This document shows, one piece after another, positions 3,524 to 9,893 of a stretch of DNA of 64,000 bases (its first letter is position 1; each line of letters begins with the position of its first letter). Origin of the DNA: Alphaproteobacteria bacterium (lineage in GTDB: Bacteria; Pseudomonadota; Alphaproteobacteria; Micropepsales; Micropepsaceae); NCBI GenBank assembly GCA_947474565.1, contig CANJIS010000008.1:1-64000 (forward strand), given 5' to 3'. The notes beneath the pieces are model-generated. The model searched no databases, was not told the DNA's origin, and saw nothing but the letters and a program-made list of their open reading frames with translations. Position numbers and translations under genes: made by a program.

Positions 3524-3880
3524 ATGGCCGTTGAGATTACCCAGCAATTCACCTTTGACGCCGCCCACCAGTTGGGCGTGGGCGCGCAAGAGAACCTGCG
3601 CGTGCACGGTCACTCTTTCTATGTGGACGTGACGCTGAAGGGGCAGCCCGACGCCAACACCGGCGTGGTGCGTGATTTCGGGCAGGTGGATACCGTGCTG
3701 AAAAGCGTGCGCGAACTTCTCGACCACCGGCTTTTGAACGATGTCGAGGGTCTGGGCCCGCCCACGCTCGAAAATCTGGCCCGCTTTATTTATGCCCGCG
3801 CCAAGGACAAGCTTCCGGAAGTGGCGCGGGTGAAAATCGCCCGCCCGTCCTATGGTCAGAGCTGCACCTATGAGCCGTAA
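3524..3880 (+). CDS. queD: 6-carboxy-5,6,7,8-tetrahydropterin synthase (QueD family)
   Basis: [17 protein letters not shown]..., [36 protein letters not shown]; adjacent to queF. Start taken at internal ATG. Confidence 0.9.
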
Positions 3881-4319
3881 ACTCACGCAATTGGGCCGCC
3901 CCACAGCGCAGCCATCGTCGCCGGACAAGGCTGTGCTGGAAAGCGTGGACAATCCGCATCCGGGCGATGATTACTTGGTGCGCTTCACCGCGCCGGAATT
4001 CACCACGCTGTGCCCAATCACCGGACAGCCGGACTTTGCCCATTTCGTCTTGGACTATGTGCCGGGCAAGGCGATCCTGGAGTCCAAATCCTTCAAGCTT
4101 TATCTCGCCAGCTTCCGCAATGCGTCGGGCTTTCACGAAGACACCACGTTGAAGATCGCCAAGCGCGTAGCCCAGGCGGTGAAGCCAAAATTCCTGCGCA
4201 TTGCGGGCTTCTGGTATCCGCGCGGCGGCATTCCCATCGATGTGTTCTGGCAGACCGGCAATTTGCCGAAATCGGTGGCGCTGCCAGATCCGGGCATATC
4301 GGCCTACAAGGGCCGCTAG
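3852..4319 (+). CDS. queF: NADPH-dependent 7-cyano-7-deazaguanine reductase QueF
   Basis: [41 protein letters not shown]...[11 protein letters not shown]; classic QueF motifs. Confidence 0.95.
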
Positions 4320-4428
4320 GCGATACAGCATTGTCTTTGCTGATAATTCTCCGCTAAACACGCTTAACAAACTTCCGTTCCGGGGGCCGGGAACTTTTAT
4401 GGCGGATGGCCGTTAAAGTTCCCTCGTA

Positions 4429-4971
4429 GTGGGTCCAGCATTGCTTAAGTACGCCATTCCGCTCGGCATAACAGCGCTGCTCGCCGCAGCCGTGCCTGCG
4501 GCGTGGGCGCAGGATACGGATGTCACCGGCCTGTCGCTGGAGCAGCTGGCCAATGTCGAGGTCACCAGCGTATCGCGGCGGGCCGAACCGGTGAGCCGGG
4601 CGCCGGCCGCCGTCTTTGTCATCACCGCCGAGGATATCCGCCGTTCCAGTTTCGGCACGCTGCCCGATGTGCTGCGCCTGTCCAGCGACAAGGATCAGCA
4701 GGTGATCAAGGGCAGCACCTATGAGGGCATAGTCGATCTGATCGATTTCCTGCCGCTGCTGGGCGACCGCGAAGCCTTGATTTTGGGGCAGGGCGTTTCC
4801 ATGCCCATGCGCATCCGCTTCGACGAACTGGGCAACCAGAAGCGGCCCAAGAACATGAATATCGGCTTCTCCAAATCCTGGAAGAACCAGAACATGGACC
4901 GCGATCAGCTGGACACTATCGTGGGCCGCTGGCGCACCACCGGCCGCGAAAAATCGGAAGACCGATTCTGA
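4429..4971 (+). CDS. Chimeric ORF: signal peptide plus TonB-dependent receptor plug N-terminus fused to HerA/DUF87-like ATPase C-terminus
   Basis: Residues 1-84 (LSLEQLANVEVTSVSRRAEPVSRAPAAVFVITAEDIRRSSFGTLPDVLRL) are receptor plug-like; residues 85-180 (SSDKDQQVIKGSTYEG...LGDREALILGQGVSMPMRIRFDEL...QLDTIVGRWR) resemble the end of HerA-type ATPases. Confidence 0.75.
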   Translation: MGPALLKYAIPLGITALLAAAVPAAWAQDTDVTGLSLEQLANVEVTSVSRRAEPVSRAPAAVFVITAEDIRRSSFGTLPDVLRLSSDKDQQVIKGSTYEGIVDLIDFLPLLGDREALILGQGVSMPMRIRFDELGNQKRPKNMNIGFSKSWKNQNMDRDQLDTIVGRWRTTGREKSEDRF

Positions 4972-4977
4972 TTTTGA

Positions 4978-5235
4978 TTATGTGAGCTGGGAGAGCATCG
5001 ACATCAGCGCGATGCTTGCCACGGCAATGCCGATCAAGCCCAGGCCCAGACAGGGCGTTACCAGCGACCAGAACAGCCGTGGTTCTGTGATTTTGCTGAC
5101 GGGTTTTTTGACGATGCCCAGCATGCCGCCAAATTCGCCCTTGCCGATGGCGCGGATGGAATCCCAGACCAGGAACAGTCCGCAGATCAGGCCGGTTATG
5201 GGAAGCCAGCCAAGGTGCCAGGAGAGATAATTCAT
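4978..5235 (-). CDS. Hypothetical small membrane protein
   Basis: 85-aa ORF with two to three hydrophobic segments (WLPITGLICGLFLVWD; CLGLGLIGIAVASIALM). Confidence 0.55.
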   Translation of the reverse strand: MNYLSWHLGWLPITGLICGLFLVWDSIRAIGKGEFGGMLGIVKKPVSKITEPRLFWSLVTPCLGLGLIGIAVASIALMSMLSQLT

Positions 5236-5263
5236 ACGCTGCGCCGCTGCGCACTGAAAGGAA

Positions 5264-5338
5264 TGGCTCCCCGGGTCCGGTTCGAACGGACGACCACTCG
5301 ATTAACAGTCGAGGGCTCTACCACTGAGCTACCGAGGA
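5264..5338 (-). tRNA. tRNA-Asn (GTT)
   Basis: Minus strand TCCTCGGTAGCTCAGTGGTAGAGCCCTCGACTGTTAATCGAGTGGTCGTCCGTTCGAACCGGACCCGGGGAGCCA; 7-bp acceptor stem, anticodon GTT, encoded CCA. Confidence 0.97.
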
Positions 5339-5431
5339 ACAAGGGCGTGGGTCTAGCGCGTCTGAAATGCCATGACCAGTGGAAATTTTCTACGAATTTC
5401 CAGCCTTTAGTGAGGCTTTTTGGTGCCGCAC

Positions 5432-5461
5432 AAAAAAATGAGGCCGGGTGTTATCCCGGCC
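5432..5461 (-). terminator. Rho-independent terminator
   Basis: Minus strand GGCCGGG-ATAACA-CCCGGCC-TCA-TTTTTTT. Confidence 0.8.
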
Positions 5462-5520
5462 CCAAGGCGTTGGGTAATGGTGGGGTGTCTTCAAGGAAGA
5501 CAGGCGGGATGATGCTCCCG
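5432..5520 (-). ncRNA. Candidate orphan small RNA
   Basis: Minus strand has 7-bp hairpin TGTCTTC-CTT-GAAGACA, C-rich linker CCCCACCATTA, short hairpin CCCAA-CGCC-TTGGG, then a terminator with T7; no credible ORF. Confidence 0.35.
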
Positions 5521-5595
5521 TACGGTTAATAAACGCTTAATTGGGAAGGAACTTTTGCCCTAAAACGGGCAGGGCCGAGCTAGGGCGGGGGAAAT

Positions 5596-5669
5596 TGGAG
5601 GCCACGCCCGGAATTGAACCGGGGTTCACGGATTTGCAATCCGCTGCGTCACCACTCCGCCACGTGGCC
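5596..5669 (-). tRNA. tRNA-Cys (GCA)
   Basis: Minus strand GGCCACGTGGCGGAGTGGTGACGCAGCGGATTGCAAATCCGTGAACCCCGGTTCAATTCCGGGCGTGGCCTCCA; anticodon GCA, encoded CCA. Confidence 0.97.
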
Positions 5670-5783
5670 TCTCTTGGGGTGGGAGGGGGCCTATAACAGC
5701 AAATCGTCCGCCGAAAAAGCCGTGTTGTTTCAAAGATAATGCCCTTCTATAACCCGGCCACTCTTCCATCAGGGGACCGATTC

Positions 5784-6437
5784 ATGTCCGAAGCCATGCG
5801 CGCCGCCCGCGCCAACATGATCGACGCCCAGGTTCGCTCCGCCGACGTCACCGATCCGCGTATCCACGCTGCCCTGGCGGCCGTGGCGCGGGAGAGGTTT
5901 GTGCCCAGCGCCAAGCAGGCTTTGGCGTATGCCGATGTGCCGGTGGAAATTGCGCCCGGCCGCTATCTGCTTGATCCGCGTTCGCTGGCCAAGGCGCTCC
6001 AATTGGCAGGCGTCGGGGCAGGCGACCGCGCCCTGGATGTGGGCTGCGGCACCGGTTATTCCTCGGCAGTGCTGGGCGGGCTGGTCAAATCCGTGGTGGC
6101 GCTGGAGCAGGATGCCGATCTGGTGCGCGTTGCCAGCCAGACATTGGAACAGGCCAGCGGCAAGATTGACGTCACCCAGGGTTCCCTGATCGACGGCTTC
6201 AAGATGGGCGGCCCCTACGATGTGATTCTCGTCAATGGCAGCATCGAGGCCCGGCCCGATGCGCTGCTGGATCAGTTGGCGGAAGGCGGACGGCTGGTCT
6301 GCTTTATGTCCTCAGGCCCCCAAGGCCGCGCCATGCTGTTCGTGCGCGAACATGGCCAGGTGGGAAGCCGCCCGGGCTTTGACGCCACCGTGCCGGCCCT
6401 GGCCGGATTCAAGAAAGCCATGGGCTTTATCTTCTAG
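5784..6437 (+). CDS. pcm: Protein-L-isoaspartate O-methyltransferase
   Basis: MIDAQVRSADVTDPRIHAALAAVARERFVP, ALDVGCGTGYSSAVLGGL. Confidence 0.92.
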   Translation: MSEAMRAARANMIDAQVRSADVTDPRIHAALAAVARERFVPSAKQALAYADVPVEIAPGRYLLDPRSLAKALQLAGVGAGDRALDVGCGTGYSSAVLGGLVKSVVALEQDADLVRVASQTLEQASGKIDVTQGSLIDGFKMGGPYDVILVNGSIEARPDALLDQLAEGGRLVCFMSSGPQGRAMLFVREHGQVGSRPGFDATVPALAGFKKAMGFIF

Positions 6438-7262: not shown

Positions 7263-9893
7263 ATGCTCGACAAGACCTTCAATCCCCAGGACGTGGAAAA
7301 GCGGGTTTCCGCCCAATGGCGGGACTCTGGCGCCTTCAGCCCCAGCAAGCCTGGGGCGGAAGCGTTCTCCATTGTCATTCCGCCGCCCAACGTCACCGGG
7401 CGGCTGCATATCGGGCACGCCCTCAACAATACCCTGCAGGACATCCTGATCCGCTTTGAGCGTATGCGCGGCAAGGATGTGTTGTGGCAGCCCGGCACCG
7501 ACCATGCCGGCATCGCCACCCAGTTGATCGTGGAGCGCCAGCTTGCCGAGAAGCAGATGTCGCGCGTCGGTCTGGGCCGCGAAAAATTCCTGGAAGAAGT
7601 TTGGAAGTGGAAAGCCGAATCCGGCGGCGCGATTGTCGAGCAGCAGCATCGTCTGGGCGCCAGCGCCGACTGGAGCCGTGAACGCTTCACGATGGACGAG
7701 GGCCTCAGCCACGCCGTCACCAAAGTGTTCGTCGAGCTGTACGCCCAAGGCCTGATCTACAAAGACAAGCGGCTGGTGAACTGGGATCCGCGCCTGGAAA
7801 CGGCGGTCAGCGACCTGGAAGTCGAAAGCATCGAACTGAAGGGCCATCTCTGGCACATCAAATATCCCATCGAGGATTCCGATCAGTTCATCATCGTCGC
7901 CACCACGCGGCCTGAAACCATGTTTGGCGATACCGCCGTGGCGGTGCATCCGGATGACGAACGCTACAAGGCGCTGGTGGGCAAGCATGTGGTGCTGCCG
8001 CTGACCGGGCGGCTGATCCCCATCGTCGCCGACGAATATTCCGATCCGGAAAAGGGCACCGGTGCGGTCAAGATCACGCCCGGCCATGACTTCAACGACT
8101 TTGAAGTCGGCAAGCGTCACAAGCTGCCGCTGATCAATATCCTCAATCGCAACGGCACGCTGAATGACGAAGTGCCGGCGCCTTATCGCGGCCAGAAAAC
8201 CCATGTGGCGCGGCTCAAGGTCGTGGCTGACCTGGAAAGCGCCGGTCTGCTCGACAAGATCGAACCCATCACCCATGCCGTGCCGCATGACGAAAAAACC
8301 AAGACGGTGGTGCTGGAGCCGTTCCTCACCGAGCAATGGTACCTGAATGTTCAACCGCTGGCCGACAAGGCTATCGCGGCAGTGGAGCAGGGCAAGACCA
8401 AGTTTGTCCCGGAGAATTGGGCCGGGGTTTATTTCAGCTGGATGCGCAACATCCGGCCCTGGTGCATTTCCCGCCAGCTTTGGTGGGGCCATCAGATTCC
8501 GGTCTGGTATGACGCGGACGGCAAAATCTATTGTGCCGAAACCGAAGAGGAAGCCAACGTCCAGGCTGGCGGCAAGCCGCTGACCCGCGACGGCGATGTG
8601 CTGGACACCTGGTTCTCCTCGGCGCTGTGGCCGTTCTCGACCTTGGGCTGGCCGGAAAAGACCTCAGAGATGGATCGCTTCTATCCCACCTCGGTGCTGG
8701 TCACCGGTTTCGATATCATCTTCTTCTGGGTCGCCCGCATGATGATGATGGGCATCCACTTCCTGGGCGATGTGCCGTTTAAGACCGTCTTCATCCATAA
8801 CCGGGTGCTGGACGAACAGGGCGCCAAAATGTCCAAGACCAAGGGCAATGTGGTGGACCCGCTGACTTTGATCGACGAATTCGGTGCCGATGCCTTGCGC
8901 TTTACCCTGGCGCTGGCGGCGGGGCAGAGCCGCGACATGCGTATCGGCCCGACACGGGTGGAGACCAACCGCAATTTCGCGACCAAGCTTTGGAATACCT
9001 CGCGCTTCTGCGAGATGAATGGCTGCGTCACGGTGCCAGGCTTCGATCCCGCCACGGTCGGCCAGACGGTCAACAAGTGGATCGTGACCGAAACCTCCCA
9101 TGCCATATCCAACCTCACGGGCTTGCTGGAAGGCTTGCGTTTCAATGATGCGGCGGGCACCGCCTATCATTTTGTCTATGACATTTTTTGCGACTGGTAT
9201 GTCGAGATCACCAAGCCGATCTTCCAGACCGGCAGCGACGAGGCCAAGGCGGAAACCCGCGCCACCACCGCCTGGGTGCGCGACCAGATCCTGAAGCTGC
9301 TGCATCCCTTCATGCCGTTCATCACGGAAGAATTGTGGGCGCTGACCAGCGAAACCAAGCGCGACACGCTGCTGATTGAAGCGGCGTGGCCGGCGCAGGT
9401 TCAAGTGGCAGGCGGCGATGCCGCCACCGCCGAGATGAATTGGGTAATCGCGCTCATCGCGGGCATTCGGTCTGTGCGCGCGGAAATGAATGTCCCGGCG
9501 GGCGCGAAAATTCCCATGCTTCTCACGGGCGCCAACGCGTCATCGCAAGGCCGCCTGGAACGTAATCGCGATGTGATCCTGTTCCTGGCGAGGTTGAGCT
9601 CGGCAGATAGCGCCGACGCCATTCCCAAAGGCTCGGCGCAGGTGCCGCTGGAAGAAGCCACCATCGCGCTGCCGCTGGGCGATGTCATCGATTTCGCCAA
9701 GGAACGTGCCCGGCTGGAGAAGGACCTGAAAAAGGCCCAGGAAGAAATCGCCCGCTTCGACGCCAAGCTGTCAAACGAGCAGTTCGTCTCCAAGGCGCCG
9801 GAAGAGGTGCTGGCCGAGCAGCGCGAAAAGCGCGCCGAAGCGGCAGCCCTGGCGACGCGGTTGACCGACGCCATCACACGGCTCAGTCATTAA
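7263..9893 (+). CDS. valS: Valyl-tRNA synthetase
   Basis: 876 aa; PPPNVTGRLHIGHALNNT (HIGH), KMSKTKGNVVDP (KMSKS), C-terminal coiled coil. Confidence 0.98.
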   Translation: MLDKTFNPQDVEKRVSAQWRDSGAFSPSKPGAEAFSIVIPPPNVTGRLHIGHALNNTLQDILIRFERMRGKDVLWQPGTDHAGIATQLIVERQLAEKQMSRVGLGREKFLEEVWKWKAESGGAIVEQQHRLGASADWSRERFTMDEGLSHAVTKVFVELYAQGLIYKDKRLVNWDPRLETAVSDLEVESIELKGHLWHIKYPIEDSDQFIIVATTRPETMFGDTAVAVHPDDERYKALVGKHVVLPLTGRLIPIVADEYSDPEKGTGAVKITPGHDFNDFEVGKRHKLPLINILNRNGTLNDEVPAPYRGQKTHVARLKVVADLESAGLLDKIEPITHAVPHDEKTKTVVLEPFLTEQWYLNVQPLADKAIAAVEQGKTKFVPENWAGVYFSWMRNIRPWCISRQLWWGHQIPVWYDADGKIYCAETEEEANVQAGGKPLTRDGDVLDTWFSSALWPFSTLGWPEKTSEMDRFYPTSVLVTGFDIIFFWVARMMMMGIHFLGDVPFKTVFIHNRVLDEQGAKMSKTKGNVVDPLTLIDEFGADALRFTLALAAGQSRDMRIGPTRVETNRNFATKLWNTSRFCEMNGCVTVPGFDPATVGQTVNKWIVTETSHAISNLTGLLEGLRFNDAAGTAYHFVYDIFCDWYVEITKPIFQTGSDEAKAETRATTAWVRDQILKLLHPFMPFITEELWALTSETKRDTLLIEAAWPAQVQVAGGDAATAEMNWVIALIAGIRSVRAEMNVPAGAKIPMLLTGANASSQGRLERNRDVILFLARLSSADSADAIPKGSAQVPLEEATIALPLGDVIDFAKERARLEKDLKKAQEEIARFDAKLSNEQFVSKAPEEVLAEQREKRAEAAALATRLTDAITRLSH

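Follow-up and report, generated by a model that had tools for sequence, protein, structure and literature searches.

TonB-dependent receptors of the TOL_0244 type (NCBIfam NF053590) usually have a YfiR-associated CHASE8 sensor kinase as their neighbour. HerA/DUF87 proteins are hexameric ATPases, represented by the family NF042944 and by solved entries such as 8wiv, 9c1m, and 8xau, which are matched by the full-length HerA of a sister species (G009) discussed below. Deletions between short direct repeats are also known in bacteria, and verified cases from Salmonella have a junction microhomology of about 8 bp or more (PMC3411829). In the window, that is, the whole stretch of 64,000 nucleotides analysed here, the two protein families meet in a single open reading frame of 180 aa with a GTG start, located between queF and tRNA-Asn (positions 4429-4971). 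Judging from sequence comparison, this ORF is very probably a real and fairly recent microhomology deletion scar in a decaying variable locus, in which a putative signal peptide and TOL_0244-type receptor N-terminus (residues 1-84) continue in frame into the 96 C-terminal residues of a HerA/DUF87 ATPase. It would be a clean example of ordinary gene decay, where a deletion leaves behind an open, annotatable hybrid gene without meaning, its frame surviving for no other reason than that the two parents write the same tripeptide in the same codons. Automatic annotation would label such a gene as an exported hypothetical protein or as a HerA fragment.

Structure of the Hybrid Reading Frame

The interval from queF to tRNA-Asn contains the following features, given in positions of the window.

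3852..4319, + strand: queF, left anchor of the variable site (PF14489, E 3e-28; start codon as mechanically listed)
4377..4402, + strand: terminator-like hairpin followed by a T-rich stretch, downstream of queF and ahead of the hybrid ORF (consensus scan only)
4429..4509, + strand: receptor signal-peptide-like N-terminus (MGPALLKYAIPLGITALLAAAVPAAWA), read from the sequence, with putative cleavage after residue 27
4510..4680, + strand: start of the mature TOL_0244-type receptor, extending to roughly position 30 of 107 in the Plug model (NF053590, receptor alignments from the genus and others)
4672..4680, + strand: the join CTGCGCCTG, Leu-Arg-Leu, which relatives of either parent also have in this frame
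4681..4971, + strand: HerA/DUF87 ATPase C-terminus of 96 residues, with the stop codon (86% identity to G009 HerA 483-581; NF042944, PADLOC)
5264..5338, - strand: tRNA-Asn(GTT), right anchor of the variable site (ARAGORN)

The original prediction took the 180 residues for two unrelated halves rather than one full-length family, and profile searches agree, since the halves receive separate NCBIfam assignments and no single NCBIfam, Pfam, or PADLOC family spans the whole ORF. Residues 32-87 match NF053590 (E 2.5e-20, model positions 2-57 of 604), in keeping with the signal peptide and receptor plug start that had been read into residues 1-84, and residues 82-164 match NF042944, HerA_antiphage_2 (E 1.6e-8, model positions 493-572 of 576). 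The tail, which had been predicted to become the end of a HerA/DUF87 protein from about nt 4681, is likewise recognized by the PADLOC HerA model (9.2e-16), and the receptor and HerA profile matches overlap at residues 82-84, Leu-Arg-Leu. The tail shares 86% identity with an intact HerA at the syntenic position of a sister species, which puts the two-part assignment far beyond chance.

Pfam alone was too weak to reveal the two-part nature of the ORF, and its Plug profile (PF07715) matched in the N-terminal half only, at profile positions 2-30 of 107 with an E of 0.08, under the cut-off. A complete plug domain was not found in the hybrid, nor was there a match to the C-terminal beta-barrel (PF00593), the ORF terminating in HerA sequence. 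The DUF87 core with its Walker motifs (PF01935) was not found in the hybrid either; in G009 HerA the core match covers residues 163-407, outside the retained 483-581. The conserved C-terminal HerA segment is present by NCBIfam, PADLOC, and codon comparison with relatives, and all of the strongly conserved motifs of the tail, e.g., LPLLGDREA and GQGVSMPMR, are retained.

The HerA tail has matches in many genomes of the genus, located inside full-length HerA frames, the best being that of G009. The receptor half has more distant relatives only, and its better matches in the genus are 44-56% identical and belong to full-length receptors of about 650-750 residues. In a whole-ORF search of 69 genus genomes, both halves occurred in one frame only in the window's own genome (G000), and a genome-contig scan with the hybrid returned receptor relatives and no named fusion.

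As to the surroundings of the ORF, queF was found in 39 of the 41 genomes of the genus. Terminator-like sites number 4 in 4200-5350, against 1.0 +/- 1.2 in shuffles, by consensus scan. Nucleotide comparison of 4320-4440 and 4966-5264 with the loci of relatives gave no match, and an Rfam search of 3800-5800 returned two tRNAs and otherwise sub-threshold matches only. On the - strand, at 4978-5235, lies a membrane-protein-like ORF of 85 aa without an assigned family, for which nucleotide comparison found no relative among the compared loci.

The queF Site in Sister Species

At locus L088 of G009 (contig C16), amtB, glnK, and queF are followed by a CHASE8 sensor kinase (NF053592, YfiR-like protein-associated) with its HATPase part, then by a response regulator and a second histidine kinase, and finally by an intact HerA of 581 aa, all co-directional, and no receptor lies at the queF site. 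By gene content, G009 holds the right-hand part of a receptor module and, adjoining it, a complete kinase-HerA module, at the place where the window retains the beginning of a receptor and the end of HerA. The CHASE8 kinase of G009 is frameshifted between its dimerisation and ATPase parts (L088, 7975-9338), and thus the G009 locus is itself decaying or carries a sequencing error. At 1325-2893 of the same locus an integrase gene adjoins a tRNA-Asn 3′ fragment, such as a mobile element leaves when it integrates into the tRNA gene.

In another sister species, G092 (L110), queF is followed by 87 C-terminal receptor codons on the opposite strand (8161-8424; NF053590 positions 532-601, E 3.3e-15), and this stub abuts a truncated HerA starting at about codon 327. 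The right flank, tRNA-Asn, tRNA-Cys, and pcm, is the same as in the window. Because stub and queF are on opposite strands, the arrangement also requires either an inversion or a second copy of the receptor at the site. In six genomes the distance from queF to tRNA-Asn ranges from 0.9 to 7.3 kb; the interval looks like an insertion hot spot, and the site is variable and has been cut at least twice, independently. G009 and G092 present the undeleted or differently deleted states of the locus. Of the two intact parents that the original prediction had suggested looking for between queF and tRNA-Asn in relatives, HerA was found in G009, whereas the receptor was not, being absent from this site in G009 and represented in G092 by the inverted C-terminal stub only.

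Both parent modules occur elsewhere in relatives. A CHASE8-type kinase and a response regulator lie directly downstream of TOL_0244-type receptors at nine loci (L096, L111-L114, L116-L118, L125), and a kinase of the second type lies directly upstream of HerA at nine others (L092, L094, L101, L119-L124), the full order receptor-kinase-regulator-kinase-HerA being seen in no one genome. At the latter loci the sensor histidine kinase gene stands just before, and often overlaps, the HerA/DUF87 ATPase gene, and the pair possibly constitutes a regulated HerA or a defence system. No paper on a histidine kinase-HerA pair was found, and a literature search for a HerA, YfiR, and CHASE8 cluster returned nothing relevant.

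Origin of the Join

The join occupies residues 82-84 (LRL), nt 4672-4680 of the window, and its nine bases, CTGCGCCTG, read CTG CGC CTG. At this position the receptor family has the consensus (D/E)VLRLAPN and HerA has (I/V)(A/V)LRLSSE. The same nine bases are found at the join position in most HerA genes of the genus, including those of G009, G092, G001, G016, G012, G035, and G069, and also, in the same frame, in several receptors (e.g., L041, L042, L145). Each parent had been suspected of being able to carry an L/M-R-L-like peptide here, and the relatives of each indeed do so, giving both parental ends a short identity at the join. The 9-bp match is read from relatives because the breakpoint sequences of the parents themselves are lost. 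As receptor and HerA genes alike read these shared bases in one frame, as Leu-Arg-Leu, a deletion there would preserve the frame without selection.

We propose that the queF to tRNA-Asn interval of an ancestor of this lineage held a receptor module, made up of a TOL_0244-type TonB-dependent receptor, a sensor kinase, and a response regulator, and behind it a kinase-HerA module. A single deletion would have run from receptor codon 84 to about HerA codon 484. Its two ends would have shared 9 bp, which fits RecA-independent slippage or microhomology-mediated end joining, and it would have left the in-frame hybrid as an undecayed relict. The predicted removal of most of both genes by a microhomology deletion thus gains support from the occurrence of CTGCGCCTG in relatives of both parents and from the intervening genes kept at the site in G009. 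It needs extending in one respect, as several genes between the two parents were probably lost too, about 6-7 kb in all, estimated from G009 and from the receptor modules elsewhere.

An assembly misjoin or binning chimera, by which the two gene ends would be adjacent in the assembly only, could draw on the division of G000 (2.18 Mb) over 39 contigs and on a 9-bp repeat exactly at the join. However, protein searches of this genome, rated 99.84% complete, found no other HerA piece, no such CHASE8 kinase apart from a weak partial kinase match, and no close TOL_0244-type receptor other than the hybrid. Because the missing pieces were not found on other contigs and both halves lie where synteny places them, with queF on the left and the HerA end towards tRNA-Asn in G009 and G092, a misjoin is unlikely; moreover, a 9-bp repeat is short to make an assembler collapse the sequence, and another deletion occurred at the same site in G092. 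Several successive losses, or an insertion followed by excision, might have reached the same end state as one deletion, and the varying length of the interval, the integrase and tRNA-Asn fragment at the site in G009, and the different pieces lost in G009 and G092 are in line with such a course. The missing receptor at this site in G009 and the inverted stub in G092 count against the proposed deletion. Nevertheless, one join at codons shared by both sides suffices, and no integrase remnant or repeat was noticed at the join, which makes this course very unlikely.

Selection and Function

In the HerA tail (92 codons, 16 sequences), omega is 0.098 on the G000 branch vs. 0.063 elsewhere, a difference that is not significant (2dlnL 0.75). 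On the G000 branch an omega of 1 is rejected (2dlnL 12.3), values above about 0.28 lying outside the 95% interval. Fully neutral evolution along the whole branch is thus rejected and a deletion late on the branch fits, the neutral share of the branch being bounded, by our estimate, at roughly a quarter. A low omega of the tail is equally expected under retention by selection, and it is no proof of such retention because the G000 branch includes time with a whole HerA. Synonymous distances of the tail are similar to those of the neighbours amtB, glnK, and queF. For the receptor half, omega is 0.26 and an omega of 1 is not rejected (2dlnL 2.7; 57 codons).

Most probably the hybrid is a relict without function, fairly recent on the scale of these species and still undecayed. 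By profile matches, the HerA core, the greater part of the plug, and the entire barrel are missing from it, and, if made, its predicted signal peptide would export the HerA tail into the periplasm, a compartment in which no role is known for it. Alternatively, selection may maintain the hybrid as a novel small protein that is expressed and exported to the periplasm, in which case fusion of a receptor gene with an ATPase gene would have created it in a single step and given the HerA tail a new role. The open frame with a signal peptide, a tail omega well under 1 over the whole branch, and the complete set of strongly conserved tail motifs would suit such a protein, yet the fusion occurs in only one of the 69 genomes searched, shared codons account for the open frame, the low omega also covers the time before the deletion, and the receptor half does not reject neutrality. 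No sigma-70-like promoter was found upstream by consensus scan, a weak test in this organism, and a single-sequence fold of the hybrid (mean pLDDT 34) is uninformative rather than negative. The new exported small protein that had been offered as one reading therefore finds no support, and of the alternatives weighed here we regard it as the most improbable.

Comparison with Known Systems

Like TOL_0244 TonB-dependent receptors, the hybrid aligns through residues 32-87 to model positions 2-57, including the LPxVLRL plug start; unlike them, it is without 547 of the 604 model positions. Its last 96 residues resemble the HerA/DUF87 hexameric ATPases through their identity with the full-length sister HerA, whereas the DUF87 core is missing and the signal peptide would target the remnant for export from the cytoplasm. 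With the deletions at short direct repeats described in Salmonella (PMC3411829), the proposed event would share a join at about 9 bp common to both sides. It differs from these in that the deletion is deduced between species rather than observed, and in that it happens to fall in frame between two genes.
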